In this document: positions 28,776 through 60,974 of the stretch, one piece after another
Position numbering within the stretch: the first letter of the stretch is position 1
How the letters are laid out: each line of letters begins with the position of its first letter
DNA from: Paraburkholderia largidicola
GTDB lineage: Bacteria; Pseudomonadota; Gammaproteobacteria; Burkholderiales; Burkholderiaceae
Assembly (NCBI RefSeq): GCF_013426895.1
Contig: NZ_AP023176.1
Span: 62,001-126,000 of the forward strand
DNA: 64,000 bases
Direction: 5' to 3'
Made by a program: the position numbers and the translations under genes
Notes under the pieces: model-generated
Told to the model about the DNA's origin: nothing
Databases searched by the model: none
Seen by the model: the letters and a program-made list of their open reading frames with translations, nothing else

Positions 28776-30335
28776 ATGTCCAGTACCCTCGCATACCGCA
28801 ACGGCGTAGCGGCTCTGTTGCTGTTGTTGTTCGCGTTGCCGTCGTTCGCGCAATCGTTCCGGGTGCAGTGTCCACCCACTACCACGCTGCATCCAAAGGC
28901 CCTGCCGGCAGGCGCGGGCGAGCCTGCCTATACGGGGCCGTCCGTCACCGGACCGAACTCGCAGGCGACGGGCGTGGTGAACGGCGCGATCAAATGCCAG
29001 CAGATTTCGGGTGGTGACGGCTACGCCACCATGGGCGATGGCACGCAGACCTATCTGTTTGCGTTCGGTCCGCTGTCAGGTCTGGCGGATATCAAGAAGG
29101 GACTGCCGGGGACGGAGTTCGCGTCGGTGTTCAATGTCGTCGGCACGGCCGCCGATCCGAACTACAACGGCGCAATCGGCCTCGTGCCCGATCCGGAATC
29201 GACGCCGCCCGGTCAGCTGACGGGGCATGTCGATCCACGCCAGATCATGGACGTGGGCGTGATGAACGGCAACATGCCCGCGCCGACGATGGCCATCGAC
29301 GAAGACGACGAGTTCTTCCTCACGCTGACCAACGTCGGGATGATCATGCGCCCCGATCTTTTCGAGCAGCACACGGTGCACTTTCACGGCTATCCGAATG
29401 CGTCTGCGTTCTATGACGGCGTGCCGGATGCGTCGGTGGCCATCAACATCGGCGCGAGTTTCACGTACTACTACCTTGCGCCCGATGCGGGCACGTACTT
29501 CTGGCACTGCCACATCACGCCGCCCGAGCATCTGCAGATGGGCATGGTTGGCCAGATTTTCGTGCGTCCGCGTCAGAACCGCGTGACGAACGGCACGCTC
29601 TATCACGCGCTGATCCAGCAGCAGAGCGATCCACGCACGGCTTGCGGCAGCGATGTTCTCTGCTCGACGCCCGTGCCGCCGCAGAACAGCGTGCTGCATG
29701 TGAAGAACAGGAGCAACACGCCGACGCTCTATGCCTACAACGACGGCGACGGTTCGACGGCGTATGACGTCGAGTATCCCGTGCAGATTCACGGTTTCGA
29801 TCCGAACTTCCACTTCGTGGGCATGACGTTCAATCCGGAGCCCTTCACCGACATGAAGGACAAGTACTTCATGCTCAACGGCCGCAGCTATCCGGACACC
29901 GTGTCGCAAGGGCCGATGCAGACGCCCGTTGCCGACGGCTCGCAGCATTTCTCGCAGCCGCTGCCCGCACTCATCAATATCCCGGCGGGCGGCAAGGCGC
30001 TCCTGCGCATTTCGGATCTCGACGTCAGCGAGTTTCAGACGCTTGCGTCGCTTGGCATTCCGATGCATGTGATCGGCGTCAACGCGCGGCTCCTGCGCGA
30101 TCTTGCCGGCAACGACATGACCTATCTGACCAACTCGATCACGCTCGGCGGCGGCGAGTCGATCGACGTGATTCTCGATGCGAGCGACACGACCCGCTAC
30201 TCGGCGGGCCAGATTTTCTATCTGTACACGCCGAACCTCGACCACCTGTCGAACGATGCCGAGAACTTCGGCGGATTGATGACCGAGGTCCACATCTGCC
30301 ATTCGGTGGACCCGACCACGAAGTCCTGCACCTAG
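28776..30335 (+). CDS. Exported multicopper oxidase, ceruloplasmin-type half site with T1 Cys (519 aa)
   Basis: This exported copper protein (signal peptide to about residue 26) has a cupredoxin core in which the HTVHFHG (His199, 202, 204) and FWHCHITPPEHLQMGM (His244, Cys245, His246, His252, Met257) motifs lie in one domain. The arrangement matches the type 1 copper site and half of the trinuclear site of ceruloplasmin domain 6, with two extra residues between HCH and the next His. The C-terminal half has PVQIHGFDPNFHFVGM and LGIPMHVIGVN. A normal three-domain laccase puts HCH at the C-terminus, so this is a permuted or partial enzyme. It begins the operon and is followed 10 bases later by the second oxidase gene. 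Likely substrate: metal ion or phenol; unproven. Confidence 0.88.
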   Translation: MSSTLAYRNGVAALLLLLFALPSFAQSFRVQCPPTTTLHPKALPAGAGEPAYTGPSVTGPNSQATGVVNGAIKCQQISGGDGYATMGDGTQTYLFAFGPLSGLADIKKGLPGTEFASVFNVVGTAADPNYNGAIGLVPDPESTPPGQLTGHVDPRQIMDVGVMNGNMPAPTMAIDEDDEFFLTLTNVGMIMRPDLFEQHTVHFHGYPNASAFYDGVPDASVAINIGASFTYYYLAPDAGTYFWHCHITPPEHLQMGMVGQIFVRPRQNRVTNGTLYHALIQQQSDPRTACGSDVLCSTPVPPQNSVLHVKNRSNTPTLYAYNDGDGSTAYDVEYPVQIHGFDPNFHFVGMTFNPEPFTDMKDKYFMLNGRSYPDTVSQGPMQTPVADGSQHFSQPLPALINIPAGGKALLRISDLDVSEFQTLASLGIPMHVIGVNARLLRDLAGNDMTYLTNSITLGGGESIDVILDASDTTRYSAGQIFYLYTPNLDHLSNDAENFGGLMTEVHICHSVDPTTKSCT

Positions 30336-30345
30336 GAGATGAGCC

Positions 30346-32004
30346 GTGGGCAACATCATCGACAACTTCCGACGCACACGCTACACGCGGCGTGGCTCGG
30401 CGCCGCGTTTTACGCTGTTCCACGCGCTGCTCTGCGCAGCCGTCGTCGCGCTGCTCTACTGCGTCAACGCGCACGCGGCCGCGCCGGGCATCACGGGCAC
30501 GAACTTCGATCTGTCGGCCGAGGCCAACCGCATCAGCCAGCCTGACGGCGCGAGCGTCTACGCGTGGGGCTACGGCTGCCGCACCGCGCCCTCGGGCTTT
30601 TCTCCCGCCACCGTTGCGGGCGCGAACTGCCCGAGCATGCAGGTGCCTGGGCCGACGTTGATCGTGAGGCAAGGCGACAAGGTCACCGTCACGTTGACGA
30701 ACAACCTGCCCGAAGCGGCGGGCAATACGTCGATCCTGTTTCCTGGCTTCCAGGTCTGCGCCGCCGTATTGAATCCGGACGGCACGTGTCCAACGACGCT
30801 CACGGGCGTGCCGGGGCTGCTCACGCGCGAGGCGACACACGGCAACAGCGTGACCTACAGCTTCATCGCGTCGACACCGGGCACGCACAGCTATTACAGC
30901 GGCACGCAGAGCGACCTGCAGGTCGAGATGGGCCTGTCGGGCGCGATCATCGTGCTGCCCACATCGACGCCCACCACGTCGGGCGGCGCGCTCGCCGTCC
31001 CCGCTGGCTGTCGCGCGGTTCAGTCGACACTGCCCGACGGCCAGCCCGATTTTCGCAACGCTGCTGCCGCTTACGACCATCCGTTGGCCTGCTACGACCG
31101 CGAGTACCTGTTCCAGTTCTCCGAGATGGACCCGCGCATTCATACGCAGGCCGAGCAGGAAGCGGCCAAACCGTGCTCGCAGGCGACGGGTTGCATGAGC
31201 GTCGAAACCGAGCCGTACCGCCCCGCGTACTTCATGATCAATGGCCGCTCGATGCCCGACGACATGGACCCGAACTATGCGCAGCAGTATCCGCATCAGC
31301 CATACAACGGCAATCCGCACATGCATCCGGGCGAACTCGTGTTGCTGCGCGTGATCGGTTCGGGCCGCTGGCAGCATCCGTTCCACGAGCACGGCAATCA
31401 CGTGCGCGTGCTCGCGCGCGACGGCAATCTGCTGTTGAGCAAAATGGACGCGACGAAGCTCGCCGGGCCGCTGCTCTTTACGACGACCACGACGCCCGGC
31501 CTCGCGATGGACGGCATCTTCTACTGGACGGGCAAGGGGCTCAACTGGGACGTCTACGGACACACGGCGGGCGACGGCAGCGTCTGCGTTCCGGATGCGA
31601 ACGGTTACTACACCGTCAACAGCAATCCGCCCGCGCCGCTGAACGCGCCGAACTACTACGAGTGGTGCGCCGATCACAACAAGCCGCTCGAAGCGCATCC
31701 GTTCGGCAATGTCGGCAGCGGCGGTCCCGTGACCTTGCCCGATGCGCGTCTGCTGACGAACGGCCCGTGGTACGGCGGCAGTCCCTATCTCGGACCCGAC
31801 GCGACGATTCGCGCGACCTCGTTCACGGGCACCACGCCGCCGAGCGGAACGATCGCGAATTCGCCGACATCCGAAGCCGGGTTCGCCTACATGTGGCATT
31901 CGCACAATGAGCGCGAGATTACGACGAACAACATCTTCCCAGGCGGAATGATGATGATGATGCTCGTCGATCCGCAGGCGTTCACGATCAACGAAGGCAA
32001 TTAA
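30346..32004 (+). CDS. Exported multicopper-oxidase-like protein lacking the T1 Cys (552 aa)
   Basis: This exported protein (signal segment FTLFHALLCAAVVALLYCVNAHA, after a long basic N-region) has the MCO pattern. The N-terminal domain carries AWGYGC and VPGPTLIVRQGDKVTVTLTNNLPE but no HxH in the usual place. The C-terminal part has HPFHEHGNH (His344, 347, 349, 352) and AYMWHSHNEREITTNNIFPGGMMMMM. Here HSH (residues 518-520) stands where HCH is normal, so the T1 copper ligand Cys is missing while two His remain. It may supply the domain-1-type half of a trinuclear site and pair with the previous protein. GTG start, with AGGAG before it. It is directly followed by the 2723-residue protein. 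Confidence 0.85.
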   Translation: MGNIIDNFRRTRYTRRGSAPRFTLFHALLCAAVVALLYCVNAHAAAPGITGTNFDLSAEANRISQPDGASVYAWGYGCRTAPSGFSPATVAGANCPSMQVPGPTLIVRQGDKVTVTLTNNLPEAAGNTSILFPGFQVCAAVLNPDGTCPTTLTGVPGLLTREATHGNSVTYSFIASTPGTHSYYSGTQSDLQVEMGLSGAIIVLPTSTPTTSGGALAVPAGCRAVQSTLPDGQPDFRNAAAAYDHPLACYDREYLFQFSEMDPRIHTQAEQEAAKPCSQATGCMSVETEPYRPAYFMINGRSMPDDMDPNYAQQYPHQPYNGNPHMHPGELVLLRVIGSGRWQHPFHEHGNHVRVLARDGNLLLSKMDATKLAGPLLFTTTTTPGLAMDGIFYWTGKGLNWDVYGHTAGDGSVCVPDANGYYTVNSNPPAPLNAPNYYEWCADHNKPLEAHPFGNVGSGGPVTLPDARLLTNGPWYGGSPYLGPDATIRATSFTGTTPPSGTIANSPTSEAGFAYMWHSHNEREITTNNIFPGGMMMMMLVDPQAFTINEGN

Positions 32005-32023
32005 CGAGACGGGGAGAATCGCG

Positions 32024-35000
32024 ATGAGAGCCTGCGATTTCAAAAGGACGCTTGCCGGCCTCGTGAAGGCGGGTGTCGTGGCGTCGATGCTGATGACGGC
32101 GAGCACGATGGTCTGCGCGCAGAGCGTGACGCTGACGGCCAAGGCCCAGACGATTGCACTTCCCGATGGACAGGTCGTGCCGATGTGGGGCTACAGCTGC
32201 TCGGCCGCGGCCGTCGCGCCCGCCACCTGCGCGGCGACCAATTCCGGCGCGGGTGCGAACTGGTCACCTGTCGTGATCACGACGCCGCCCGGCTCGCTGA
32301 CGATCAATCTCACGAACAGCCTGCCCGCGCAGGTGCCGACGTCGCTCGTGATCGTCGGGCAGCTCGGCGGCGGTCTCGGCAACACGGCGACCACGTCGCC
32401 AAGTCCCGTTCACGCGACCCAGACGGCAACGACCTGGCCGATCGCCGGCACGGGCAGCGGCGCGAGCTTCACGCCGCCGACGCAAGGCCCGCGCGTGCAG
32501 TCGTTCTCGAGCGAAGTGAATACGGGCAGTTCGAGCGCGCTGACCTGGAACAATCTGCGCCCCGGCACCTATCTGATCGAATCGGGCACGCACCCGTCCA
32601 TCCAGGGGCCGATGGGTCTGTACGGCGTGCTCGTCGTCACGACGCCTCCCACGGCCGGTTCGACGCAAGGGCAGGCTTACCCCGGCATCCGATACGACGC
32701 GGATCTGCCGCTGGTGCTCGGCGAAATCGACCCGGTGCAGAACCAGGCCGTCGCCACGGCCGTGGCCACACCGGGCTTCAGCGAAACACGCGTGTGGTCC
32801 GGTCTCTCGGGCGGCTGCGGCGATCCCGCATCGGCGACCTACGGAACCTGCTATCCACCCGCGGTGAACTACGATCCGCGCTACTACCTGATCAACGGTG
32901 TCGCATTCGACCGGTCGAATGCCAATGGCTCCGCGTTCCCTGTCACGGCGCCCGCTGCAACCCCCAGTTCGACGGGCCAGATACTCCTGCGTTTCGTGAA
33001 CGCCGGTTTGCGCATGCACGTGCCATCCGTGGTCGGCGCGCAAACGGGCCTGCCGCCCGTGTCCGGCTTCTCGCTGATCGCGGAGGACGGCAACCTGCTG
33101 CCCGGCAATCCGCGCGTGCAGAGCGCGGTGTTTCTGGCCGCCGGCAAAACCTACGACGTGCTGATGAACTCGGTCCCTGCGGGCGCGCTCGCGTTGCCCG
33201 TGTTCGACCGTCAATTGAGCCTGTCGACCAACAACCAGCGCGACGGCGGCATGCAGGGCTACATCAGCGTGAACGGCGGCGCGTTGCCGACTTCCGCGGC
33301 AGGCAACGTGAACGCGAAGGCGAATCCGGATTCGTACTTCCTCGTCGCGGGTAACACGCTGACGGTCTCGGACCCCGGCAAAGGGCTGATCGCAAACGAC
33401 GTGGGCGTCTACGGCGTGCAGATCAAGACACAGCCGACGGGCGGCACGCTCACGCTGAATCCGAACGGCACCTTCACGTATGTACCGAATGCGGGCACCA
33501 CATCGGACAGCTTCACCTATCAGGCAAACGGCAACGCCTCGCTGACCGCGACGGTGACGCTCGCCGCATGTTCGGCGGGCTCGAACTGCCTGTCGGGGGC
33601 GCCTGTCGCATCGGATGACGCGTTCAGCAGCAACATCGCGTCGCAGTTGCACATCGGCGCGCCGGGCGTGCTCGGCAACGACCGCGATCCGGCGGGGCTG
33701 CCGCTGACGGCTTCGATCGTCGGCGGTGCGTCGGGCGGCACGGTGACGCTCAACGCGGACGGCTCGTTCAACGCTGTGCCGAGCGTGGCACCCGTCGGCA
33801 ATGCGACGTCGACGGTCACGTTCAAGTACAAGGCCGTCAACTCGCAGAACACGGCGAGCGGGGCCGCGACTGTCACGGTGAGCTTCAAGGGCGGCAGCGG
33901 TCTCGCTGTCGCGGTGAAGGATGCGAAGACGGGGACGACAATCAACGACTACCGCTGGATCATCGAAGAAGACCGTACCTTCCAGATCGATCCCGCATGC
34001 CAGGTGAACTCGTCGACGCGGCCCGCGACCTGTCCGCCGCTGCCCGTGCCGAGCCTCGGCACGAGCTTCCACACGAGCTACATGCCCGTCGTCGCGGCGG
34101 GATGCGTCGGCACGGTGTCGTGCGAATCGGGGCAGACCGTGTTCGATCCGGGTACGAATACGCACGTACCCGCCGTGTGCGACGTCGGCAACGGCGTGTG
34201 CCGCACGGATTCGGCCCAGCAGACGGCTGTCGATCCATCGCAGGTCGCGCTCGATCCGACGAAACACTACTACCTGTCGATCCTTCCGGGCGACGCCGGC
34301 AACACCTTCACGAACGGCGCGGGCGCGCCGCAGCCGGTCAATCCGAGCAATCCGGACGGTCCGCAACGGCAGTTCGACATTGCGAAGGATTGTCCGTCGG
34401 GTCCGGGCGGCGCGGACTTCGCGCCCGGCACGGGCACCTGCGGCCACGCCATGGGCGGCGCGCCGATCGCGCCCGCGCAACATGCCGTCAACGTGCTGCT
34501 GCAGCAGACTCCGCTGCAGACGGCGAAGATCTCGGTGTTCGTGTTCGAAGACGATGCACCCGTCAACGGCGAGGTCGATGTGAGCGGCGGCACGGATGCA
34601 TTCGGCACGGCACGCGAGCCGGGCCTCGGCGGCTTCGAAATCAAGCTGTTCGACGACGCGGGCGGCACGGGCGACGCGACCGGCCAGATGACCTACGACA
34701 TGTTCAACATGCCGCTGTCCAATTCGCTGCAAGGCACGATCGACCCGAGCACCGGCCTCGACGCGTGCCCGATCACGAAGGCCGCGAACGACGGCCTGGT
34801 CGGCATGATCCCGACCTGTCCGAAGTTCGAATCGGACGGCAAGACGATGTCGCCGCTGGTGGGCCAGGCGATCATCGCGAACCTGATGCCGGGACGCTAT
34901 GGCGTCGTCGCGACGCCGGCCGCGGACCGCATCGCGAAGGGCGAAGAGTGGCTGCAGACCAATACGCTGGACGGCCAGAAAGCGCACGATGCGTTCATCA

Positions 35001-38000
35001 AGGTGGGCGGCCCCGCCTACTTCCAGGAGTTCGGACCGGCTGGCTTTCACGTGACGATCGGCTTCGCGAATCCGAAGATCATCAACGCGCGGCTGCCGGG
35101 CGTCTGCAAGGGCGTGCCGTGCAACAACGGCGTCACGGGCAAGATCACGAACCTGCACTACAGCCGTCCGCCTAACGAAAACCTCTACAGCAGCGGCTCG
35201 CGCGATTCGCTGAGCTTCACGCAATGCTACGTGAGCGTCGGCGATCCCGATCTCGAAGACATCGCGTTCACGAAATGCAACGCGGACGGCACGTTCAGCA
35301 TCAGCGGCCTGCCGGATGGTCTGTTCCGCATCACGGTGTTCGACCAGTGGAACGACCAGATCGTCGACGGTCTCGCGACGGCGGTGCAGCTCAAAGGCGG
35401 ACAGACGCAGAACGTCGGCGACCTGGCCGTGCTGCAATGGCACACGAACCTTTACACGCGCAGCTTCATCGATACGAACGGCGATGGCGTGTCGCAGGAC
35501 AGCGAGCCGGGTCTCGCGCTCGTGCCGACCAATATCCGCTTCCGCGACGGCAGCTATTCGAACTTCAACAACACGGACCTGAACGGTTACGCGTCGTTCA
35601 ACGAGGTGTTCCCGCTCTTCAACTGGTACATCGCGGAGGCCGACACGACGCGCTACAAGCAGACGGGCGTGCATGTGGTCTACGACGCGGGCGGCCCGCC
35701 TGACGGCACGCCTGGCGGCGGGGGCTCGTCGATCGCGGCGAACTACGCGAACACACTGGAATCGTCGACGGCGCATCTGCCGAACGCGTTGCGCGTGCCG
35801 GGCGCGATCTACTGCAACGACGCGGACTGCAATGACCGCACGGGCACGAATCCGTCGACGGGTCGCATCGATCCGCCGTGGGTCACGACGATGGGCTGGC
35901 AAGGCTTCTCGGGCCAGAACTCGTTCATCGAATTCGGCAAGGCGCCGTATGGGACGAACGAGAACGGCGGCATTCATGGCGAAGTGATCTACGCATCGAC
36001 GCGCCCGTTCGACGATCCCGCTCTGCTGATCCATACGAGCTGGACGCCCGACGTGCCGAACGTGACGGTCAACCTGTACGCCGAAGGCACGGCCGCCGAC
36101 GGCACGCAGAGCCTCACGCTCGTCGATACGACGAAGACCAGCAGCTGGGACGACTGGGCCCAGGGTTTCCGTTCGGATGGCGTGCCGAACATGAACTGCC
36201 CGGGCCAGGAAACCACCGATCCGTTCTTCTTTACGCTGAAGGACAGCCCGCAATGGCTCGACCCGCAAAAGCGGACGCTGCCCATGCACGCGCAGTTCAA
36301 GTGCTATGACGGCATGCACGCGTTCAACCAGCTGCAGCCCGCGCCGTACGACGGGATGTACCAGTTCCCGAGCGTGACGGACCGTGATCCGCAGAAGGGC
36401 ACGCCGAAGGGTTCGAACTGCACGGTCTGCAGCAAGCTCGCCGATGGCTCGTACATGCTGCCTGCGGGCAAGTATGTGGTCGAAATCATCGTGCCGCCGG
36501 GCTATGAGCTCGTGAAGGAAGAAGACAAGAACATCCTGATCGGCGACAACTACATCGCGCCTGTCACGCAGCAGTTCGGCGGACTGGGCAACATCTTCAT
36601 TCTGCCCGACCAGGCGGCGGTGAACGCGACGTACAACCGCAACAACGCGCAGAACCCGACTACGGATCTCGGCTCGTCGCCGCGCCACGAAGGCGACACG
36701 GGCAGCGTCGAGACGTTCTGGCCGTGCGTCGGCGCGCTGCGTGTGGTGCCGGACTACATCAGCCTGTTCCCGGGCTCGCAGGAAGTCGCGCCGTTCGCGG
36801 GCGCTTCGCGGCACCTGTGCGACCGCAAGGAAGTCGTGCTGACCAACCAGATGTCGGTGCTCGCGAAGTTCTGGGTGTTCAGCTCGACGCACGTGGCTGC
36901 GCACTTCACCGGCTTCATGCTCGATGATTTCTCGTCGGAGTTCGATCCGTACTCGCCGCAGTTCGGCGAAAAGTTTGCGGTGCCGAACGTGCCTGTTTCG
37001 ATGAAGGATTTCGCGGGCAACGAAGTGAGCCGCATCTATTCGGACCAGTGGGGCATCTTCAACGGATTGAATTATTCGACGTGGGAAGTGAACCCGCCGA
37101 ACCCGACGGGCTATGCGCCGACGATGATGGTCGCCTGCATGAACGATCCCGACATGCCGGACCCCGCGCATCCGGGGCAGACGATCCGCGATCCGCTGTT
37201 CAACCCCGCGTACAGCCAGTTCTGTTACGAGATTCCGTTCATGCCCGGGCAGACGCAGTACATGGATACGCCTGTCGTGCCCGTGTCCGCGTTCGCAGAC
37301 GGCTACAACCCACCCGATTGCGCGTATCCGGACGCGACGCCCGCGATCTCGTCGGTGACGGGCGACACGAGCAACGGCGGTGCGGGTCCGTGGGTGAGTC
37401 AGGCCGGCCATACGCTGACCATCAAGGCGCTCGGCGACCAGCAGGTGCCGAACCATGCGTACGGCGGTCCCGCTGCGACGACTTCGCCGTATAACCAGAA
37501 GTTCGTCACGCGGCACTATGGTTTCGGCGCATCGCAAGGCACCGGGACGGTGACGGTCGGCGGCGTGAATGCGCACGTGAACGCGTGGTCGGATACCCAG
37601 ATCAACATCACGGTGCCGACGCTCTCCGCGAACCAGTCGAGCTGCACGATCCAGCAGCGCGGCGTCAATACGCAGACGCGCTGCGGCGAACTGGTCATCA
37701 CGTCGAACAACGGCAAGAAATCGATCGATACCGTGACGGTCACGATCGGCGGCAAGGCACCTGCCTATGTCGGCGGCGAGAATGGGACGAACAACGCGAT
37801 CCAGACGGCCATCGACAAGGCGACCCCTGGCGACCTGATCATCGTCGGGCCGGGCAACTACAGCGAAATGCTGCTGATGTGGAAGCCCGTTCGTCTGCAA
37901 GGCGTGGGCGCGCCTGCCGTGGTCGTGAATGCGAACACGCATCCGTCGGGCAAGCTCGACCCGTGGCGCAGACAGGTCGACTGCCTGTTCGGCGTGGCGC

Positions 38001-48520: not shown

Positions 48521-48543
48521 ACCCGCCGCGCGGAGGTGTCAAC

Positions 48544-49374: not shown

Positions 49375-49842
49375 GTGAGCGACATCCCGTTCATGTCCAC
49401 ATGCGGCAGATCCATCGATACGCATGCACGGCAAGCAGTGCGCGAGAAAGGCTTCACGCTGCTCGAACTGCTGGTGGTCATGGTCATCATCGGCCTGCTG
49501 GCGGGTCTCGTCGCTCCGCGCTACTTCGAGCAGATCGGCAAGTCGAACACGAAGATCGCGCGCGCGCAGATCGAATCGCTCGGCAAGGCGCTCGATCAAT
49601 TCCGGCTCGACGTCGGCGCGTATCCGACCACGGAACAGGGCCTGCAGGCGCTGATGACAAAGCCGCAAGATGCGCCGCACTGGAGCGGCCCCTATCTGCA
49701 GAAGGCCGTGCCGCCCGATCCGTGGGACCGCCCCTATCAGTATCGCGCGCCCGGCGAACACGCCGACTACGACCTGTATTCGTACGGCAAGGACGGCCAG
49801 CCGGGCGGCTCGGGCGAGAACTCGGACGTGACGTCCTGGTGA
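49375..49842 (+). CDS. gspG: Type II secretion major pseudopilin GspG
   Basis: This is the main subunit of the pseudopilus, 155 residues. The prepilin leader ends in EKGFTLLELLVVMVIIGLLAG, with Phe at the processing site and Glu at position +5. The C-terminal part has AYPTTEQGLQALMTKP, WSGPYLQKAVPPDPWDRPYQYRAPGEHADYDLYSYGKDGQPGGSGENSDV, which is the calcium-binding core typical of GspG. GTG start with GGGAGG before it. It begins the secretion cluster; the prepilin peptidase must come from elsewhere. Confidence 0.95.
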   Translation: MSDIPFMSTCGRSIDTHARQAVREKGFTLLELLVVMVIIGLLAGLVAPRYFEQIGKSNTKIARAQIESLGKALDQFRLDVGAYPTTEQGLQALMTKPQDAPHWSGPYLQKAVPPDPWDRPYQYRAPGEHADYDLYSYGKDGQPGGSGENSDVTSW

Positions 49843-51079: not shown

Positions 51080-52810
51080 ATGGACACGGCGAGCATGGCG
51101 AACGGCATCGGCGGGACGGGCGGCGTCGACCTGCGCGACGCGCTGCGCACCCTCGCCGAGCGTCATGGCTCGGGTCTGCGCGCGCTCGAAGATCTGCTTA
51201 CGCAAATGCCCATCAGCCCCGACGAGGCGCTGGCGCAACTCGCCGTGCAATGCCACATGCAGCCGGTCACGATGCAGGCGCTGAACGCGCTGCAACCGGA
51301 TTTCGACGTCGTACCGTTCGTCGAGGCGACGACCCGCCTGTGCATCTGCTTTCGCGAGGCCGAAGATTCCGCCGGGGGACGCGGCCTGTTGTTCGTGATC
51401 GCCGATCCGCTCGACCGGCGCACGCGCGGCAGTATCGAGCAACGCATGCGCGCGCGGCCTGCCGTGCCGTATCGCTGGGCGCTCGCGAGCATCGGCGACA
51501 TCACCGCGTGGCTCGCGGTGCGCGAGAAGGACGTGCGCGCGATGGACTCGCTCGCGTTCGATCAGACGACCCAGCATGCCGCCGATCCCGCGTCGCTCGC
51601 GCTGACGCTGCAAGGCATCAGCAACGACGACAGCGCCGTCGTGCGCCTGCTGAATTCGACGATCTACGACGCCCTGAAAATGATGGCGAGCGACATCCAC
51701 CTCGAATGCCGCGCGCATGGGCTGATGATCAAATGCCGCGTCGACGGCGTGCTGACGGTGGTGGGGCGCGTCGAAGGGCGCGACGTCGCGGATCAGGTGC
51801 TGTCGCGCGTGAAAGTCATTTCCGAGCTCGACATCGCCGAGCGCCGCGTGCCGCAGGACGGCCGTTTCAAGGCCGTCTATGCGGGCCGCGAGATCGATTT
51901 TCGCGTGTCGATCATGCCGAACCAGTTCGGCGAAGACGCGGTGCTGCGCATTCTGGACCGTTATCAGCTGTCGCAGGCGTCGGGCGGACTCACGCTCGAA
52001 GCGCTCGGTTTCCAGCAGGAAGATACGCGTTTCATGCGCACGGTTGCGGCGATGCCCTACGGCATGCTGCTCGTCACGGGGCCGACGGGCAGCGGCAAGA
52101 CGACGACGCTCTACGCGATCCTCACGGAGATCAACGACGGACTCGAAAAGATCGTGACCATCGAAGACCCCGTCGAGTATCAGCTGGGCGACATTCTGCA
52201 GATTCCCGTCAACGAGGCAAAAGGGCTGACCTTCGCGCGCGGGCTTCGCTCGATCCTGCGCCATGATCCGGACAAGATCATGGTCGGTGAAATCCGCGAT
52301 CCGGAGACCGCGCAGATTGCCGTGCAGGCGGCATTGACGGGCCACCAGGTTTTCACGACCGTGCACGCGAACAACGTGTTCGACGTGATCGGCCGTTTCA
52401 CGAACATGGACGTCGACCCTTACAGCTTCGTATCGGCACTGAACGGCGTGATTGCGCAACGGCTCTTGCGCCAGTGCTGCCCGGACTGTGTCGCCGAAGA
52501 TACCGTCGATGCCGATGCGCTCGCGCGATCGGGCATCGATCCGGACACGGCGGGCGGCTATCTGTTCCGGCGCGGTATGGGCTGCGCAGCCTGCCGCGGC
52601 AGCGGCTATCGCGGACGGCGCGCCGTCGCGGAAGCGTTGCGGATGGACGACGAACTGCGGCAATTGCTGTCCGAACGCGCGCCGCTTATGCAGATCAAGG
52701 CGGCCGCATTCCGGCAGGGCATGAAGACGCTGCGAAGTGCGGCAGTCAAGCTCGTGCGGCAGGGCGAAACGACTCTCGAGGAGATCAACCGTGTCACCAT
52801 GGTCGATTGA
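51080..52810 (+). CDS. gspE: Type II secretion/type IV pilus assembly ATPase GspE
   Basis: This 576-residue ATPase powers pseudopilus assembly. The N-terminal domain is followed by the catalytic domain: Walker A GPTGSGKTTTLYAI (about residue 334), then IVTIEDPVEYQLGDILQIPVNEAKGLTFARGLRSILRHDPDKIMVGEIRDPETAQIAVQAALTGHQVFTTVHANN. The zinc motif CCPDC and CAACRGSGYRGRR (Cys pairs near 466 and 504) is present. It is standard for GspE or PilB. It starts 14 bases after gspF. Confidence 0.95.
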   Translation: MDTASMANGIGGTGGVDLRDALRTLAERHGSGLRALEDLLTQMPISPDEALAQLAVQCHMQPVTMQALNALQPDFDVVPFVEATTRLCICFREAEDSAGGRGLLFVIADPLDRRTRGSIEQRMRARPAVPYRWALASIGDITAWLAVREKDVRAMDSLAFDQTTQHAADPASLALTLQGISNDDSAVVRLLNSTIYDALKMMASDIHLECRAHGLMIKCRVDGVLTVVGRVEGRDVADQVLSRVKVISELDIAERRVPQDGRFKAVYAGREIDFRVSIMPNQFGEDAVLRILDRYQLSQASGGLTLEALGFQQEDTRFMRTVAAMPYGMLLVTGPTGSGKTTTLYAILTEINDGLEKIVTIEDPVEYQLGDILQIPVNEAKGLTFARGLRSILRHDPDKIMVGEIRDPETAQIAVQAALTGHQVFTTVHANNVFDVIGRFTNMDVDPYSFVSALNGVIAQRLLRQCCPDCVAEDTVDADALARSGIDPDTAGGYLFRRGMGCAACRGSGYRGRRAVAEALRMDDELRQLLSERAPLMQIKAAAFRQGMKTLRSAAVKLVRQGETTLEEINRVTMVD

Positions 52811-53705
52811 TTCGCGCGGCGCGGACCTCAACATCGGCATCGGCACACGCGAGGTCGCCGTAGGGCCGTGCAGGCCGCGCTGGATGCCGGCGCGCAAGCC
52901 CGCTTCACCCGCGGGCTCGCGCAGTGTGCCGATGCCCGAAACGCAATGGTTCACGCAAGCGGGTGTGTTCGACGCACTGCGCGCAGCGCTCGAGCCCGCG
53001 CCGGATAGCGATGCGCCGCAAGCGCCGCGCGTGCCGTCGCGAACGCGCGGCGCCCATATCGTGCTCGACGATTTCTGGGGCAATCACGCGATATTGCGTG
53101 GCGATTTCCGCACGTTGCGCGCGCGCGAAGTCGACGAGATCGCGCGCGCGCATTTCGTCGATATCTATGGCGTCGATGGAGAGACCGTCGCCGTGCGCAC
53201 ATGCATGCAGCGTGGCGGACGCGCCATGTTTGCCAGCGCGTTGCCGCGTGCGCTGGTGGATGGCATGGGCGAGGCGAGTGCGTCGGCCGGCGCCCGCATG
53301 CTGGCGTTGAAACTGTGCCTGCCTGAAATGCTCAACCGGACGCTGCCCCAAATGCCTCGCGCAAACGCGCTGGTCGTATTCGCCGCGGACGCGCTGATCC
53401 AGGCTGTGCTGATAGAAGCGGGCGGCTGGGCCTGTTATGACGCGCAGCGCCTTTTCGCGGGAGACGAATGCGATCCCGCAAAAGTCACGCTGCTCGCGGA
53501 ACAGGCGTTCGAGCGCTGCGCGGAACGCACGACGCTCAAACGCGAGGATTGCGCGCTGGGCTTCTTTGGCTGCGGCATTGCAGTCGATCTCGCCGCGCTG
53601 CAGGCGCGCTTCGCGAGCGTGACTACGCTGGCTGCGCCCAATGCCTGTCAGGCACCCGAGGGCGGCGATAGCCTCGCGCATCATCTGCTGGAGTACGCGC
53701 AATGA
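52791..53705 (+). CDS. PilM-like pilus/pseudopilus assembly protein
   Basis: This 304-residue protein begins inside the end of gspE (20-base overlap) at a GTG with GGAG before it. The start SPWSIDSRGADLNIGIGTREVAV fits the PilM/GspL-cytoplasmic pattern, and the rest has actin-like features (ANALVVFAADALIQAVLIEAGGWACYDAQRLFAGDE). In type IV pilus systems PilM docks to PilN; its presence rather than a normal GspL makes this a hybrid. Detection by profile search would be needed for certainty. Confidence 0.7.
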   Translation: MSPWSIDSRGADLNIGIGTREVAVGPCRPRWMPARKPASPAGSRSVPMPETQWFTQAGVFDALRAALEPAPDSDAPQAPRVPSRTRGAHIVLDDFWGNHAILRGDFRTLRAREVDEIARAHFVDIYGVDGETVAVRTCMQRGGRAMFASALPRALVDGMGEASASAGARMLALKLCLPEMLNRTLPQMPRANALVVFAADALIQAVLIEAGGWACYDAQRLFAGDECDPAKVTLLAEQAFERCAERTTLKREDCALGFFGCGIAVDLAALQARFASVTTLAAPNACQAPEGGDSLAHHLLEYAQ

Positions 53706-54232
53706 TCCAGCGACTCGACATCGACTTCGCTCGCCGCCGGCCGCGCCTTGCGCCAGCGGGACTCGTCGTGCTGTGCATCGCGATCTGTGCGCTGCTTGCG
53801 AGCGGTGTGCGGCTGTGGCAGGCATTCGACGACAACGAGCAGGCGCAGGAACGACTGGACGAAGCGCGTCATCGTGTGCTCGCCAAAGCGCATCTCGTCA
53901 GGGCGCAACCAACGCCTGCCGCGATGCATGCGGAGAAGCAGAGTCTTGCGGTGCTGAGTGAACTGACGGTGCCGTGGCAAGACCTGTTGTCGATCGTCGA
54001 GGACTGTCCGGACCATGATGTCGCGCTGATCGGCATCGATCAGAACCCGGTACAGAGCCAGATTCGCATCACGGCGGAAGCGAAGAATTTCGACGCAATG
54101 ATCGCGTATCTGCGCTATCTGCAATCGAGCAAGCTGTTGCGCGAGGCCGTGCTCAACGATCACGAGATCGAAGCCAATGTTCCGGGCACGCCCGTCCGGT
54201 TTCAGGTAACCGCCGTGTGGAGCCGCTCATGA
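53702..54232 (+). CDS. PilN-like inner membrane protein
   Basis: This 176-residue protein has one N-terminal membrane segment (LVVLCIAICALLASGVRLWQAF) followed by a coiled region and a small beta-alpha domain (IRITAEAKNFDAMIAYLRYLQSSKLL), as in PilN. Its ATG overlaps the previous stop by four bases (ATGA). It would link the PilM-like protein to the PilO-like protein in a ring. A typical PilN is about 180-200 residues, so length fits. Confidence 0.78.
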   Translation: MIQRLDIDFARRRPRLAPAGLVVLCIAICALLASGVRLWQAFDDNEQAQERLDEARHRVLAKAHLVRAQPTPAAMHAEKQSLAVLSELTVPWQDLLSIVEDCPDHDVALIGIDQNPVQSQIRITAEAKNFDAMIAYLRYLQSSKLLREAVLNDHEIEANVPGTPVRFQVTAVWSRS

Positions 54233-54795
54233 ACGTCGAGTTTCTCCGCGAGCGCTGCCTGACTTTGCGTTTCGAATGGATGCGGCGCTTCGGCGTAGCG
54301 GGCATCGCAGGCATCGCGTTGTTGTGTGCGTCTGCCGTCGTGGCCGATAACGCGATACGCATGCGAGGCGACACGCTCGCGCTGTCGAACGAGGTTCGGC
54401 CTGCGCGTGGCGCGAAGAAAGCAGACGTTGCCCGCGACGCGGGCTCATACGCGGATACCGCCGTGCTCGCGAGCTTGCCCGATCTGTTTCCGCGTTTCGC
54501 GCATAGCGCGGACGATATCGCCGCGATACTCGCGCACGCCCGCGACAGCAATCTGGCAGTCGGCTCGGCGGAATACGTCATCGTTGCCGATCCGGGCGGA
54601 CGCTACGTGCGCTATCAGATGTTGCTTCCCGTCAAGGATCAGTACGTCACGATTCGCCGCTTTCTCGCGTCGGTGCTCAACAGCGTGCCGAACGCGGCGC
54701 TGCGCGAGATTCACGTCGAACGGCCCGCCGTGGACGGCAGTGTGCTCGATGCGCGCGTCCGGTTCGAACTCGTATACGGGACGGCGCGGCCATGA
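54229..54795 (+). CDS. PilO-like/GspM-like inner membrane protein
   Basis: This 188-residue protein has one membrane segment (VAGIAGIALLCASAVVADNAI), a helical linker and a small domain (YVRYQMLLPVKDQYVTIRRFLASVLNSVPNAALREIHVERP) of the PilO/GspM type. It overlaps the PilN-like stop by four bases and itself overlaps the next gene (ATGA at 54792). The protein likely pairs with PilN in the inner membrane. Confidence 0.75.
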   Translation: MNVEFLRERCLTLRFEWMRRFGVAGIAGIALLCASAVVADNAIRMRGDTLALSNEVRPARGAKKADVARDAGSYADTAVLASLPDLFPRFAHSADDIAAILAHARDSNLAVGSAEYVIVADPGGRYVRYQMLLPVKDQYVTIRRFLASVLNSVPNAALREIHVERPAVDGSVLDARVRFELVYGTARP

Positions 54796-55370
54796 GTTCC
54801 GTTCTCCTTCGCCGCTCTGTGCTGGGCATGTGCCTGATCGCGACGATCGCGCTTTCTGTGAAGGCGTGGCGCGCGCCGGAAGGACAGTCGGCGATGGCGG
54901 CGGTGAGTGTCGCGCGTCATGACGCCGCGTCGATGGCTTCTTCGGTTCGGTCCACGGCAAGGCACGACCGCGCGAAATCCCCCGGCAAAGCAACCCAGGC
55001 AGCGAGCGAAAAGACTTCGAACGAGAAGCTCGCGGCATTGCGAAAGCCCATGTCGCTCGAATCGCGCAACAACCCGTTTGCCGCGTCGTCGTGGCTGCCG
55101 CCTCCGCCCCCGCCGGTACAGGCCGCGCCCGAGCCCCCGCCGCCGCCGACCGCGCCGCCCGTGCCTTATGTGTACCTCGGCAAACTGGACGGCTCGACGC
55201 TCAAGCCACGCGTCTTCCTGAGCAGTGGCGATCAGTTGCTGATCGTGTCTCAGGGAGAAGTGGTCGATGGACAGTACCGCGTCGAGTCGATTTCCGACGC
55301 CGACATCGTACTGATGTATCTGCCGTTGAATCAGAGGCAGGTCATATCGATGCAAAGCGAAGGAAAATGA
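54792..55370 (+). CDS. PilP/GspC-like protein with a proline-rich stretch
   Basis: This 192-residue protein has an N-terminal hydrophobic segment (LLRRSVLGMCLIATIALSVKAW), then a flexible Ala/Ser-rich part. A remarkable polyproline stretch follows at about residues 102-122 (PPPPPPVQAAPEPPPPPTAPP). The end is a beta domain, VPYVYLGKLDGSTLKPRVFLSSGDQLLIVSQGEVVDGQYRVESISDADIVLMY, typical of the PilP/GspC homology region that contacts the secretin. The polyproline may span the periplasm. It is translationally coupled to the PilO-like gene. Confidence 0.78.
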   Translation: MSSVLLRRSVLGMCLIATIALSVKAWRAPEGQSAMAAVSVARHDAASMASSVRSTARHDRAKSPGKATQAASEKTSNEKLAALRKPMSLESRNNPFAASSWLPPPPPPVQAAPEPPPPPTAPPVPYVYLGKLDGSTLKPRVFLSSGDQLLIVSQGEVVDGQYRVESISDADIVLMYLPLNQRQVISMQSEGK

Positions 55371-55384: not shown

Positions 55385-57679
55385 ATGACAGCCGCATGCA
55401 GCCGCGATCGGAGCCGCAACGGGGACAGCGGCTCATCTACGCGCTATCCACCGCAGTCCGCGCCCCTCACGCATGGCTCGCCCCGTGTGCCGATCTCGAA
55501 GCGCCAGGCTGCGTGCATCGCCCTGGCCGTGCTGGCGTTGGGCGGTTGTGTGACGCCGCCCGCCACGCGTCAGAACGATCCCACCAACGCACAATTGCAG
55601 ATCGACTATCTGCACGATCGCGACGCGCGCGTGAATGCGTTGCTCGACGATGCGGACGCGTACCGCGCGAGCTATCAGTACGACCTCGCGGTCAAGGCGC
55701 TTGGCCAGGCCTACCAGATCGACCCGACCAGCGAGCGTGGCCGCAAGATCGGCGCCGCGCTCGACCGCGACCGGCGCGACCTCACGAGTTTGCAGGAAGC
55801 CGACCGCATGATGCAGCGCGGCTCGTATGCGGTCGCGGAAGAGCGCGTGCATCGGGTGCTGGCGCAGAACCCGACCAATCCGATGGCGCAGCAGATGCTC
55901 AGGGATATCCAGGACAAGCGTAATCAGCAGCGCGCGCTGAAGGAGGAAAAGATCACCGCCTCGTCCATCATGCGGACGCCCGTCACGCTGCAGTTTCGCG
56001 ATGCCAATGTGCGGATGGTGTTCGAAGCGCTGTCGAAAACGACGGGTCTCAACGTGATTTTCGATCGCGACGTACGCGCCGACCTGAAGACGACCATCTT
56101 CGTGACCAACGCGACGCTGCAGGACACCGTCGACATGATCCTGATGCAGAGTCAGCTCGACAAGAAGCAACTGAACGCGAACACGCTCTTCATCTATCCG
56201 GCGACGCCAGCGAAGGAACTGGAGTATCAGGAACTGAAGGTGCGCACGTTCCAGTTGTCCAATGTCGATGGGAAGCAGATTCAGGGCTTGCTGAAGAGCC
56301 TGCTGAAACTGAAGGAAGTGGTGGTCGACGAACGGTCGAACACCGTCACGATACGCGGCACGCCCGATACGATCCGCGTGGCCGAGGAAATGATCGCCGC
56401 GCAGGACATTCCCGAGCCCGAGGTGATGATGGAAGTGCAGGTGCTGGAGGTTTCGCACGATCGCATGACCGACCTTGGCATCGAATGGCCGAACTCGTTC
56501 ACCGTGTCGACGCCCGCCACGGCCAATACCTGGGGCGAGTTGCATCATCTGCCCATCAATGCGCTCAATGTGAGCGGCCTGTCCGCGACGGCCAATTTCA
56601 AGCTGAGCGACACGGATGCCAATCTGCTCGCCAGTCCGCGCATTCGTGCGCGCAACAAGGAAAAGGCGCGCATCCTGATCGGCGACAAGGTGCCCGTGAT
56701 TTCGAGTTCGAGCACGCCGAGCACGAGCGGACCGTCCTATACGCAGATGGTCCAGTACCTCGACGTCGGCATCAAGCTCGAAGTCGAGCCGCAGGTGTAT
56801 CGGGACGGCGATGTCGGTATCAAGCTGAACCTGGAAGTGAGCAACATCACCAAGGTTATCCAGAGCGACAGTTCGCAGGCAGGGCTGACGACACTCGCTT
56901 ATCAGATCGGCACGCGCAACGCGTCGACGAGTCTGCGTTTGCGCGACGGCGAAACGCAGATCCTCGGCGGCCTGATTTCCGACCAGGACAGAACGACGGC
57001 CGACAAGGTGCCTGGCCTCGGCCAGTTGCCCGTGCTCGGACGGCTCTTCTCCAATCACAACGGCGACCACGTGAAGACGGAGATCGTGCTGCAGATCACG
57101 CCGCATATCGTGCGTCCGCAGATCGCCGCCGACGCGGATACGCAGGAAGTCTGGTCGGGCACCGACGTCAACGTGCACTCGGAGCAACTGCGGCTCGACC
57201 CGGTCGTCGCGGAACTGGAACCGGCGGTGCCGCGTCCCGTCGTTCGTACGCCCGGCAGTGTGGGCGGCGGCACGACAGGCGGCGCGGCCTCTACGCCGCA
57301 CAGCAGCACGCAGGGCCGGCCGACCACCCAGCCGCCCGCGAGCGCGTTTGGCCAGTTGCCGCCGGCACCCCGCACGGCGCCGCCGCAGCAGCCGTACGGT
57401 GGCCGCTATTCGACCTTGCCTGCGCCGCCGGTGCCGCCCGCTAACGGCGCCACGCCGCCGGCCGATCAAGGCGCTCCCGAGGCGCAGTCGAGCGGCGAGA
57501 ACGGCAACGGGAACGCGCCACAGATCCCGTCCGCCGCACCCGGCGCGCAGATGGCGCCTCCGCCTGCGCCCGCACCCGCGCTGTCAGCGCCGGCCGCGCC
57601 TCCGTCGAACCTCGTGATGCCGCCAGGCGATATGCCGAGCGACAACCCGCTGCGTCCGGTGCAGAACGGCGGGTACTGA
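55385..57679 (+). CDS. gspD: Type II secretion outer membrane secretin GspD
   Basis: This 764-residue secretin forms the outer membrane channel. An unusual long Arg/Ser-rich N-terminus precedes a lipoprotein-like signal (IALAVLALGGC). N-terminal domains run to about residue 350 (TPVTLQFRDANVRMVFEALSKTTGLNVIFDRDV, and LSNVDGKQIQGLLKSLL), then the secretin domain with ASPRIRARNKEKARILIGDKVPVISSSSTPS and SLRLRDGETQILGGLISDQDRTTADKVPGLGQLPVLGRLFSNHNGDHVKTEIVLQITPHIVRP. A Pro/Ala/Gly-rich tail of about 150 residues follows. I kept the ATG at 55385 (AAGGAAAAT before it), but the GTG at 55487 would put the lipobox at a normal place. It is downstream of the PilP-like gene by 14 bases. Confidence 0.92.
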   Translation: MTAACSRDRSRNGDSGSSTRYPPQSAPLTHGSPRVPISKRQAACIALAVLALGGCVTPPATRQNDPTNAQLQIDYLHDRDARVNALLDDADAYRASYQYDLAVKALGQAYQIDPTSERGRKIGAALDRDRRDLTSLQEADRMMQRGSYAVAEERVHRVLAQNPTNPMAQQMLRDIQDKRNQQRALKEEKITASSIMRTPVTLQFRDANVRMVFEALSKTTGLNVIFDRDVRADLKTTIFVTNATLQDTVDMILMQSQLDKKQLNANTLFIYPATPAKELEYQELKVRTFQLSNVDGKQIQGLLKSLLKLKEVVVDERSNTVTIRGTPDTIRVAEEMIAAQDIPEPEVMMEVQVLEVSHDRMTDLGIEWPNSFTVSTPATANTWGELHHLPINALNVSGLSATANFKLSDTDANLLASPRIRARNKEKARILIGDKVPVISSSSTPSTSGPSYTQMVQYLDVGIKLEVEPQVYRDGDVGIKLNLEVSNITKVIQSDSSQAGLTTLAYQIGTRNASTSLRLRDGETQILGGLISDQDRTTADKVPGLGQLPVLGRLFSNHNGDHVKTEIVLQITPHIVRPQIAADADTQEVWSGTDVNVHSEQLRLDPVVAELEPAVPRPVVRTPGSVGGGTTGGAASTPHSSTQGRPTTQPPASAFGQLPPAPRTAPPQQPYGGRYSTLPAPPVPPANGATPPADQGAPEAQSSGENGNGNAPQIPSAAPGAQMAPPPAPAPALSAPAAPPSNLVMPPGDMPSDNPLRPVQNGGY

Positions 57680-57682
57680 GCG

Positions 57683-58228: not shown

Positions 58229-58236
58229 GCGCGACC

Positions 58237-59246: not shown

Positions 59247-59540
59247 CGATCGGCATCAAGCTGATTGAAATCCCCCTGTTTGCATCTTCATCGTTGCAGG
59301 TCCAACGTCAAGGTCGTGTCATTGATTCTCATTACCTGGCTGTTCACTGCAGCTTATGAGGTTTACCGCACACATGGCGAATGATTTGCGCGCAAATAAC
59401 CCATTCCGTTTCGAATAGAAAACAGATCTTAAGGCGTTCTTAAGCCGCATTCTCCGACACTTCCATTACGGCGAATTTTCGCTTCCTTATCAGGTCGATC
59501 AGCTTTTCTTTCGAATCAGAATCAGACGGAGAGGCTTCGT
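59247..59540. promoter_or_regulatory. Spacer before the sigma-54 activator with palindromes
   Basis: The 294-base spacer carries palindrome ATTTGCGCGCAAAT at 59384-59397 (core shared with 45017-45032). It also carries two CTTAAG copies at 59428-59433 and 59439-59444, 11 bases apart, one helical turn. Both sit upstream of the sigma-54 activator gene and could be regulator sites, perhaps for autoregulation. No small gene or T-run terminator is evident in the part just after the secretion genes. Confidence 0.5.
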
Positions 59541-60974
59541 ATGGACTCGGTGACGAGGAAGCTTTATCACGTTTGCCGCGGGAACCGCGCGCTGCCGGAT
59601 GCGCTGCTGCCGACGACGAAATGGGTGATCGACAGGATCGACATTGGCGCGCGGACGAAGCGTCGTACGCGACTCGTTGCGGGCGCGGGTGGATTGCTCG
59701 ATCTTGCGTCGATGAAGTTTCCGCGTGACACGGACGCGCTCACGGAAGTGCTGGCGACGCGGGATGTCGGCTGGGTCGCGGCGCTCCAGCACGGCCAACT
59801 GGAAGACCCTGCGGTCCGCTCCGTTGTCCGCCGTCACTGCATCAGCTACATCACGCTACCGACGACAGCCGTCGAACTCGGACACGCCGTCGGTCACGCC
59901 CGCGGCATGTGCTCACTGGCCGAAACCACGACAGATGGATCGATGACCGTCGTCGATTGCGACATGATCGGCTCGTGCGATGCGATGCGCCAGCTCTTTC
60001 GCACGGTGCGCAAATTTGCGATGTGCAATGCGCCCGTTCTGATCCAGGGAGAGTCGGGTACGGGCAAGGAACTGACTGCACTTGCCATTCACCGGCACTC
60101 GGATCGACGTCACGCGCCGTTTGTCGCGATCAACTGCGGTGCGATCCCGGTGCATCTCGTGACTTCGGAACTCTTCGGTTATGAGCGTGGCGCGTTCACG
60201 GGGGCGAATGAGCGCAAGACGGGGCGCATTGAATTGGCGAACCGCGGCACTGTATTTCTCGACGAAATCGCCGATCTCCCGATGGAAAGCCAGGTGACGC
60301 TACTGCGCTTTCTGCAGGAGAACAGCATTGAACGACTCGGAGGCGTGTGCCCGATCGATGTGGATGTGAGGATCGTTTGCGCGACAAACGTCGATCTGGG
60401 GCGCGCGGCGCGCGAAGGACGGTTTCGCGAGGATCTCTATCATCGGCTGAGCGTGCTTCAGATGGAAGAGCCGCCGCTGCGCGCACGAGGTGCCGACGTC
60501 GAACTCCTGGCGCTGCATCTGCTCGAGCAGTTGCGTGCGGATTCGCGTCGCCGGATTCGCGGCTTTTCGGACGACGCCGTTCGGGCGCTGCGTGCGCACG
60601 ACTGGCCCGGTAACGTGCGCGAATTGAGAAATCGCGTGTGGCGTGCGGTTGTACTGTTCGACAACTCTGTCATCGCCGCGAGCGACCTTGGCCTTGCGCA
60701 CTATGTCGATGCGCACACGACGTCGCTCGACCAGGTGCGGCGCCGCGCCGAGCAGGAGGCAGTTGAAAGGGCCTTGCTGCGTCATCGCGGCAGAGTCGCC
60801 GACGCAGCGCGCGATCTCGGTGTTTCGCGCGTCACGCTCTACCGGCTGCTCGAGTCGCATGGATTCGATATCGCTTCGTTTCTAAAGGGCTTGCGCACCG
60901 ATGGTTCCCTGACGGCGGTTCGCCAGGTCACGCTCGCTGGTGGGCGCGGATCGACGGATCAGGGATTGTATTGA
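59541..60974 (+). CDS. Sigma-54-dependent transcriptional activator with degenerate receiver (VpsR-like)
   Basis: This 477-residue bacterial enhancer-binding protein has an N-terminal region (1-130) without a recognisable phospho-acceptor Asp, as in VpsR-type proteins. The AAA+ domain holds Walker A GESGTGKE (residues 170-177), the sigma-54 contact loop GAFTGA (217-222), TVFLDEIADLP and the RFREDLYHRL and DWPGNVRELRNRVWRAV segments. The Fis-type helix-turn-helix is RVADAARDLGVSRVTLYRLLE. It lies downstream of the secretion cluster, so it is a candidate master activator. Its target promoters were not recognised by eye. VpsR and related proteins can be tuned by cyclic-di-GMP, which is a hypothesis here. 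Confidence 0.9.
   Translation: MDSVTRKLYHVCRGNRALPDALLPTTKWVIDRIDIGARTKRRTRLVAGAGGLLDLASMKFPRDTDALTEVLATRDVGWVAALQHGQLEDPAVRSVVRRHCISYITLPTTAVELGHAVGHARGMCSLAETTTDGSMTVVDCDMIGSCDAMRQLFRTVRKFAMCNAPVLIQGESGTGKELTALAIHRHSDRRHAPFVAINCGAIPVHLVTSELFGYERGAFTGANERKTGRIELANRGTVFLDEIADLPMESQVTLLRFLQENSIERLGGVCPIDVDVRIVCATNVDLGRAAREGRFREDLYHRLSVLQMEEPPLRARGADVELLALHLLEQLRADSRRRIRGFSDDAVRALRAHDWPGNVRELRNRVWRAVVLFDNSVIAASDLGLAHYVDAHTTSLDQVRRRAEQEAVERALLRHRGRVADAARDLGVSRVTLYRLLESHGFDIASFLKGLRTDGSLTAVRQVTLAGGRGSTDQGLY

Follow-up and report, generated by a model that had tools for sequence, protein, structure and literature searches.

A Paraburkholderia largidicola locus with predicted copper ligands divided between two multicopper oxidase paralogues and an associated type II-like secretion cluster

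The window analysed here is a 64,000-nucleotide stretch of the 9.47 Mb, five-contig genome of Paraburkholderia largidicola (G000:C3:62001-126000); positions are counted from its first letter. Between positions 28776 and 60974 are found two multicopper oxidase (MCO) relatives, termed MCO1 and MCO2, a giant protein whose N-terminal region is termed MCO3, a copper chaperone, a cytochrome c, regulators and a type II-like secretion cluster. The genes named in a preliminary description of this DNA were found at or near the places it had assigned them, by Pfam, NCBIfam and translation of the open reading frames (ORFs), and some of the assignments are refined here. The features are as follows.

28776..30335, + strand: MCO1, 519 amino acids, a two-domain multicopper oxidase relative (Pfam Cu-oxidase_3/_2; aligns with domain 1 of 3g5w/2zwn)
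30346..32004, + strand: MCO2, 552 amino acids (Pfam Cu-oxidase_3/_2)
32024..40195, + strand: giant putative scaffold, 2723 amino acids, with a ligand-less cupredoxin region (MCO3), cadherin/Big and SdrD_B-like regions and a C-terminal choice-of-anchor Q region
40192..40680, + strand: small exported protein, 162 amino acids, overlapping the giant gene by 4 bases
40713..41522, + strand: LolA-like protein 1 (PF17131)
41547..42380, + strand: LolA-like protein 2, a paralogue of LolA-like protein 1 (no Pfam match)
42386..44044, + strand: MofC-like cytochrome c with one CxxCH (PF00034; a weak match, below its cut-off, to PF13458, periplasmic-binding-protein-like)
44066..44806, - strand: lytic transglycosylase (PF01464, SLT)
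45089..45103, + strand: sigma-54-like site, 170 bp upstream of response regulator RR1, with 10 of 11 consensus bases
45259..46050, + strand: NarL-type response regulator RR1 (Pfam receiver and LuxR-type)
46093..47292, - strand: PAS histidine kinase (Pfam PAS/HisKA_3)
47504..48520, + strand: SCO1/SenC copper chaperone (PF02630; CxxxC)
48538..49236, + strand: NarL-type response regulator RR2 (Pfam receiver and LuxR-type)
49375..49842, + strand: GspG major pseudopilin (PF08334)
49863..51065, + strand: GspF (PF00482)
51080..52810, + strand: GspE ATPase (PF00437)
52737..53705, + strand: PilM-like protein, start uncertain (no Pfam match; by position and conservation in G041 and G053)
53702..54232, + strand: PilN-like protein (PF05137 just under cut-off)
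54217..54795, + strand: PilO-like protein (no Pfam match; by position and conservation)
54792..55370, + strand: PilP-like protein (no Pfam match; by position and conservation)
55385..57679, + strand: GspD secretin (PF00263, PF03958, PF07660; trees)
57683-58228, 58222-58629 and 58626-59246, + strand: three further pilin-like proteins (the first two by NCBIfam, the third by conserved position)
59541..60974, + strand: sigma-54-dependent activator (NCBIfam)

MCO1 displays a Sec signal peptide, judged by eye. SCO1, which the preliminary description had also recognized, has an N-terminal extension rich in methionine and histidine (26 Met + His per 145 residues, by composition). The two LolA-like proteins are 39–40% identical when each is compared by tblastn with the other's orthologue in genome G041.

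A named genome collection was scanned with an MCO2 alignment; 198 places were confirmed and the best 80 were kept, and the locus counts given below refer to these 80. The significant PDB matches of MCO1 and MCO2 are confined to domain 1, which in both proteins matches domain 1 of the two-domain oxidases 3g5w and 2zwn. In MCO1, the motifs HTVHFHG and HCHITPPEHLQM indicate the ligands H199, H202, H204, H244, C245, H246, H252 and M255, and from the general cupredoxin pattern we take H199, C245, H252 and M255 to be type 1 copper ligands and H202, H204, H244 and H246 to be trinuclear ones. These are kept in 78–80 of 80 loci, the remainder being gaps. Where MCO1 has its ligands, the aligned MCO2 residues are T, L, P, Y, S, G and Q. 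Its own candidate ligands, H347, H349, H518 and H520, are in domain 2, where HPFHEH and WHSHNE correspond to the two domain-2 motifs of 2zwn in aligned segments that fall below significance on their own. All four are present in 80/80 loci and in 120/120 among the homologues listed. Four further MCO2 histidines, H325, H327, H344 and H352, are also invariant (80/80 loci); they are not explained by a trinuclear site and perhaps represent an extra metal site.

The ligands were compared in a joint alignment of 16 MCO1, 13 MCO2 and 17 MCO3 rows. With the exception of M255, the MCO1 ligands are replaced in every MCO2 and MCO3 row. Those of MCO2 are replaced in the MCO3 rows (gapped in three) and also in the MCO1 rows, save at the equivalent of H347, which is H in 11 of 16. 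MCO1 therefore contributes six His and one Cys (plus the Met), MCO2 four His and MCO3 none, and the sum for MCO1 and MCO2 is ten His and one Cys. According to an excerpt of PMC6854816, all such oxidases share a set of ten His and one Cys, and in two-domain laccases one chain's domain 1 and another chain's domain 2 enclose the trinuclear site. Since the two sums are equal, MCO1 and MCO2 together would provide exactly one active site. Paralogy of MCO1 and MCO2 is detected by hhalign (97.3%, E 2e-11) over 240 columns that take in domain 1 and an initial portion of domain 2, and that of MCO3 and MCO2 at 99.3% and E 4e-20. By sequence comparison, MCO1, MCO2 and the N-terminus of the giant protein are paralogues of two-domain oxidases with a predicted complementary loss of ligands, and this pattern is new.

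The preliminary description had proposed a very large oxidase encoded by split genes. The order and strand of MCO1 and MCO2 are kept in 80/80 loci, always as separate ORFs, and the two are paralogues of each other rather than pieces of one gene. The giant protein has no match to copper-oxidase families of Pfam or NCBIfam, only to cadherin/Big_9/SdrD_B-like and choice-of-anchor Q domains; its N-terminus is a cupredoxin paralogue that lacks the copper ligands, and no HxH motif is found in the whole protein. With its ligands absent, the giant protein is ruled out as an oxidase, and the predicted site is instead formed by two proteins of ∼520–550 amino acids.

Its cadherin/Ig-like and choice-of-anchor Q regions suggest that the giant protein is a surface scaffold. 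Residues 640–2000, the part searched, are 97% identical to a protein named for P. caribensis MBA4. The N-terminal region follows MCO2 in 78 of 80 loci; loci L084 and L119 end directly after MCO2, and the match to the giant N-terminus listed there is a cross-match to MCO2. The three regions of the giant protein form one ORF in 68 of 80 loci, and eight of the other 12 end at a contig edge. In G091, one contig of G198, and G234, MCO1 is preceded by the middle and C-terminal regions, and the cupredoxin part comes after MCO2. Because of these separate placements, the 2723-amino-acid protein may be a fusion. The fetched flank contains the small exported protein at 51 of 80 loci.

The best 80 loci come from Burkholderiales, other Beta- and Gammaproteobacteria, Deltaproteobacteria, many Acidobacteria and one metagenome-assembled genome (MAG) labelled Actinobacteria; the best from named genomes are in P. 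diazotrophica, P. franconis and P. piptadeniae. Of 7999 candidates scored in a protein search, 7384 match MCO2; the family is large and extends to Proteobacteria and Acidobacteria. In a 274-genome sample of the class, MCO2 is present in six of the seven genomes with MCO1. G091, which belongs to another family of the same order, has most of the gene set on a single contig, where LolA-like, PilM-like and sigma-54 activator genes were not found. Acidobacteria bacterium AB60 (G403, locus L102) has five MCO2 matches within one genome. CusB- and CusA-like efflux genes are found near two acidobacterial copies (L135:4989-9712 and L136:6323-11178). A general link of the acidobacterial loci to CusA was considered and dropped, a CusA match being present in 2 of 31 of these loci within the fetched flanks, plus the L135 stretch further out.

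The secretion genes form one cluster with a type II-like set: secretin, GspE, GspF, GspG and minor pilin-like proteins. The classical GspC/GspL/GspM platform is not found in it, and PilM/N/O/P-like genes are in its place. In a 69-row GspD tree, a branch of 30 rows (support 89/78) takes in all 20 proteobacterial secretins that are on the same contig as the oxidase genes. The branch consists of 22 linked rows, six rows from MCO genomes in which the secretin is on a different contig, G114 and a second copy in G384; the 22 are the 20 on an MCO contig plus G016 and G028, which were counted by orthology, their two genes being on different contigs. Outside the branch are the two other machines of P. 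largidicola itself and second copies of G371, G372, G375, G378, G381 and G383. Clean contrasts within a genome, with the linked copy inside the branch and the other copies out, are provided by P. largidicola, G372, G378 and G381. An earlier 68-row tree that did not include G114 had the branch at 29 rows with support 96/85.

Behind the second machine of P. largidicola (G000:C3 ∼467-476 kb) are genes for a MauG-type cytochrome peroxidase, two PKD proteins, a 732-amino-acid MCO and an SCO1-cytochrome c fusion, and machine and redox genes together constitute another such cluster (G000:C3 ∼467-490 kb; L125, L126). The third type II-like machine is at G000:C3 ∼2058-2068 kb (L247, L248).

The preliminary description had staked its proposal of a single system on co-occurrence of the oxidases and the secretion cluster in other genomes, and they do co-occur. 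Among 57 genomes of the same genus, 14 carry both a strong MCO1 and a strong secretin match, none a strong secretin alone, two only pieces of MCO1, and 41 neither. In nine of the 14 the two genes share a contig, 25–30 kb apart, and in five they are on different contigs of drafts. The two genomes with pieces only are G022 (two pieces) and G031 (one of 87 residues). G022 has a decayed copy (G022:C309; L127:15598-18977) in which MCO1 is in two pieces and MCO2 is shortened, followed by a pilin gene of the machine, and it looks as though a deletion took out the middle of the locus.

In a wider set of 54 chosen genomes, an MCO2 match is found in 53 and a secretin match (profile A3, E 1e-40) in 47. 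In 25 of these 53 (15 proteobacterial, 10 acidobacterial), no more than 30 kb separates a secretin from a copy of MCO2; random placement of secretins in a 5.8-Mb genome would give ∼1.3. The arrangement varies: the machine may be 3–4 kb upstream on the same strand, 12–29 kb away, or inverted. The machine stops immediately before MCO1 in Trinickia symbiotica, two Cupriavidus, Pandoraea terrae and the loci L106, L108 and L120, from MAGs labelled Proteobacteria or Gammaproteobacteria. The association of oxidase and secretion cluster is far above chance and constitutes a new part of the finding. In the 274-genome class sample, MCO2 was found in P. largidicola and five others, MCO1 in it and six others, and a strong secretin in it and five others; besides P. 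largidicola, only G310 and G336 have all three.

With respect to regulation, the sigma-54-like site near RR1 is also found in G041 (10/11) and G053 (9/11) at a similar distance. The sigma-54 activator at the end of the locus is present in G041; it was not found in the fetched G053 stretch and is therefore not considered core. A sigma-54 site upstream of MCO1 was also looked for, and none is conserved in 25 loci, with two isolated 9/11 matches. The lytic transglycosylase, kinase and NarL regulators fit a role in assembly and control, without being specific to it.

It is proposed that the locus encodes an extracellular heteromeric multicopper oxidase together with the machine that exports it, a reading we consider probable by a narrow balance. 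Domain 1 of MCO1 would bind the type 1 copper and form one half of the trinuclear site, with domain 2 of MCO2 forming the other half; MCO3, as a ligand-less third paralogue, would tie the enzyme to the long adhesive scaffold. The subunits would reach the periplasm by Sec, as the signal peptides judged by eye suggest. Because of these signal peptides and the Met/His-rich SCO1, copper loading is suggested to take place in the periplasm with the help of SCO1, to be followed by assembly. Type II secretion machines export folded proteins, and the adjacent type II-like machine may carry the assembled oxidase across the outer membrane. Once outside, the oxidase would transfer to O2 the electrons of a substrate that cannot enter the cell because of its size or insolubility, such as minerals containing Fe(II) or Mn(II), or phenolic polymers. 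By analogy, solid Fe(II) is favoured, since a similarly described Sideroxydans cluster rises on magnetite. Many carriers found here are soil Burkholderiales and Acidobacteria, presumably aerobic heterotrophs, and for this reason Mn(II) or phenolic polymers are also candidate substrates.

A more specific version is offered tentatively, as possible rather than probable. A homotrimeric two-domain oxidase with three equivalent active sites may have been duplicated into three paralogues and, by complementary loss of ligands, become an MCO1:MCO2:MCO3 heterotrimer, with one copper site shared by two gene products and the empty subunit grown to a surface scaffold of ∼2,700 residues. Folded and loaded with copper, it would be exported by the type II-like branch that stays with the oxidase across Beta- and Gammaproteobacteria and at least one deltaproteobacterial MAG.

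Several observations weigh against the proposed oxidase and its export. A direct comparison of MCO1 with MCO3 gave no significance, and the second domain-2 motif of MCO2 is placed by MAFFT and by a sub-threshold HMMER segment. AlphaFold single-chain models of MCO1 and MCO2 were tried and are too poor to use (mean predicted local distance difference test, pLDDT, 38.8 and 43.3), so contact between the subunits is something that we infer. Support for the secretin branch (89/78) is only moderate, and strict exclusivity of the 28 MCO-associated rows is rejected (p-AU, from the approximately unbiased test, 3.5e-6). Six of the 28 were labelled because MCO genes are present elsewhere in the genome and add little; in G371 and G383, with two copies each, the copy with the better A3 score received the label, and A3 had been made from linked secretins. 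G114 has a machine within the branch and no MCO1 or MCO2 match. There is no A3 match at E 1e-40 in 7 of the 54 oxidase genomes (G173, G198, G234, G380, G415, G416 and G418, the last four from MAG loci whose completeness is unclear). In the class sample, a strong secretin is found in two of the five other MCO2 genomes, and MCO2 in two of the five other strong-secretin genomes. The acidobacterial loci have a different type of secretin, outside the branch, and no GspE relative was seen near it in the stretches of two genomes. Finally, the secretin family is broad and for the most part occurs away from MCOs. Neither motif search nor tblastn detected an MCO at any of the 23 fetched loci whose machines belong to this family and fall outside the branch, and SCO1 matches were likewise absent. 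Some MCOs may have been missed, since several stretches are short (G067, 5.8 kb; G059, 12 kb; G058, 14 kb) and the MCO behind the second P. largidicola machine, which Pfam recognizes, escaped the motif test. With these 23 loci, the notion that the type II-like family always accompanies copper proteins was rejected. Ten 40-kb control windows from the same genomes were free of MCO motifs and multiheme ORFs, with a single weak match to an SCO1-cytochrome c fusion (34%, 50 bits); background is low, and the groups are not separated by these windows.

Other explanations were considered. The products may form an electron conduit or mineral-contact complex that does not reduce O2, MCO1 being a type 1 carrier and MCO2 a separate copper binder that act with the cytochrome c to move electrons to or from solids, as has been suggested for Geobacter OmpB. 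The cytochrome c within the operon is consistent with this, as are the further invariant histidines of MCO2, the role of OmpB in Fe(III)/Mn(IV) oxide reduction (excerpt of PMC3543383) and a machine within the branch that is found beside multiheme ORFs and no MCOs. That machine, in G114:C12 (L235, L236:12204-17065), adjoins ORFs with 43 and 21 CxxCH motifs, and no ORF with three or more was found at 26 other machine loci scanned, including the P. largidicola paralogues. A carrier, however, needs no trinuclear ligands, whereas the ligands of the two proteins complement each other exactly and make up the full set for a trinuclear O2 site, and the presumed aerobic heterotrophy of many named carriers also argues against a conduit, which we regard as unlikely.

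That the oxidase block and the secretion cluster are mere neighbours in an adaptation island, the cargo being something else, is quite improbable. Gain and loss as a unit within the genus and the separate occurrence of parts in G198, G234 and G114 point in that direction; yet the linkage survives in at least three arrangements and in both Proteobacteria and Acidobacteria where chance would give ∼1.3 of 53, and it tracks one branch of proteobacterial secretins. That the locus encodes a MofA/MnxG-type Mn(II) oxidase in several pieces is very improbable. The preliminary description had pointed to such oxidases, and the MofC-like cytochrome and SCO1 are neighbours as in PMC5566968. A single chain with all copper motifs, however, is not found here, the ligands being split over MCO1 and MCO2; the system is set apart from MofA by description, and there is no peptidyl-prolyl isomerase match among the locus proteins scanned.

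If, as in the proposed heteromeric oxidase, the copper site is shared by two gene products, MCO1 or MCO2 alone would show no oxidase activity, and this would bear on how a function is assigned to the Sideroxydans cluster. The link to secretion provides a genetic handle, gspD, on soil bacteria that may attack minerals or polymers with an exported copper complex.

Among known systems, Geobacter OmpB provides a precedent for the preliminary description's statement that a need for type II secretion has been reported for a multicopper oxidase. As reported in excerpts of PMC3543383 and PMC10599522, this multicopper protein requires an atypical, non-Gsp type II machine (Pul/Oxp). OmpB is likewise tied to a particular machine, and ompB neighbours SCO1 and a MofC-like gene (excerpt of PMC5566968). 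In contrast to the present locus, it is a single multicopper protein, and the pul genes are near cell-division and DNA-uptake genes (excerpt of PMC3543383). Leptothrix MofABC also combines an MCO with a MofC-like cytochrome (PMC5566968, same excerpt), but the present locus has no single all-motif chain and no match to a mofB-like isomerase among the proteins scanned. The two-domain laccases (2zwn, 3g5w) resemble the present proteins in the type 1 motif in domain 1, in trinuclear ligands in both domains and in a two-domain layout, which is predicted here. They are homotrimers (excerpt of PMC6854816), whereas here the ligand halves are on different gene products and the full set per chain is found in none of MCO1, MCO2 and MCO3.

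The closest likeness is to Sideroxydans. Three tandem MCO genes of Sideroxydans lithotrophicus ES-1 are in Fig. 4C of PMC5566968. PMC12016527 (2025) describes an oxidase cluster, Slit_1812-1818, with two cupredoxin proteins carrying MCO motifs, a larger motif-less third with adhesin/polysaccharide-lyase-like domains, SCO1, a cytochrome and small proteins. The same source reports similar clusters in Paraburkholderia, Ralstonia, Anaeromyxobacter and Steroidobacteraceae, and a higher abundance on magnetite than on Fe(II)-citrate. The gene content of the present locus agrees with this description, from which a putative identity of the families is drawn. The Slit cluster differs in its treatment: no link to secretion is reported, the word 'secretion' being absent from the main text of that source, and both motif proteins are taken in its excerpts to be ordinary MCOs. 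The preliminary description had regarded the whole arrangement as undescribed. For the oxidase block this does not hold, as it appears in the excerpts of PMC12016527 and PMC5566968; for the link of this MCO cluster to a secretion cluster it appears to, no report of such a link having been found in the open-licence texts searched. The system is conserved and has been partly described before, and its association with secretion and the complementary ligands are new.

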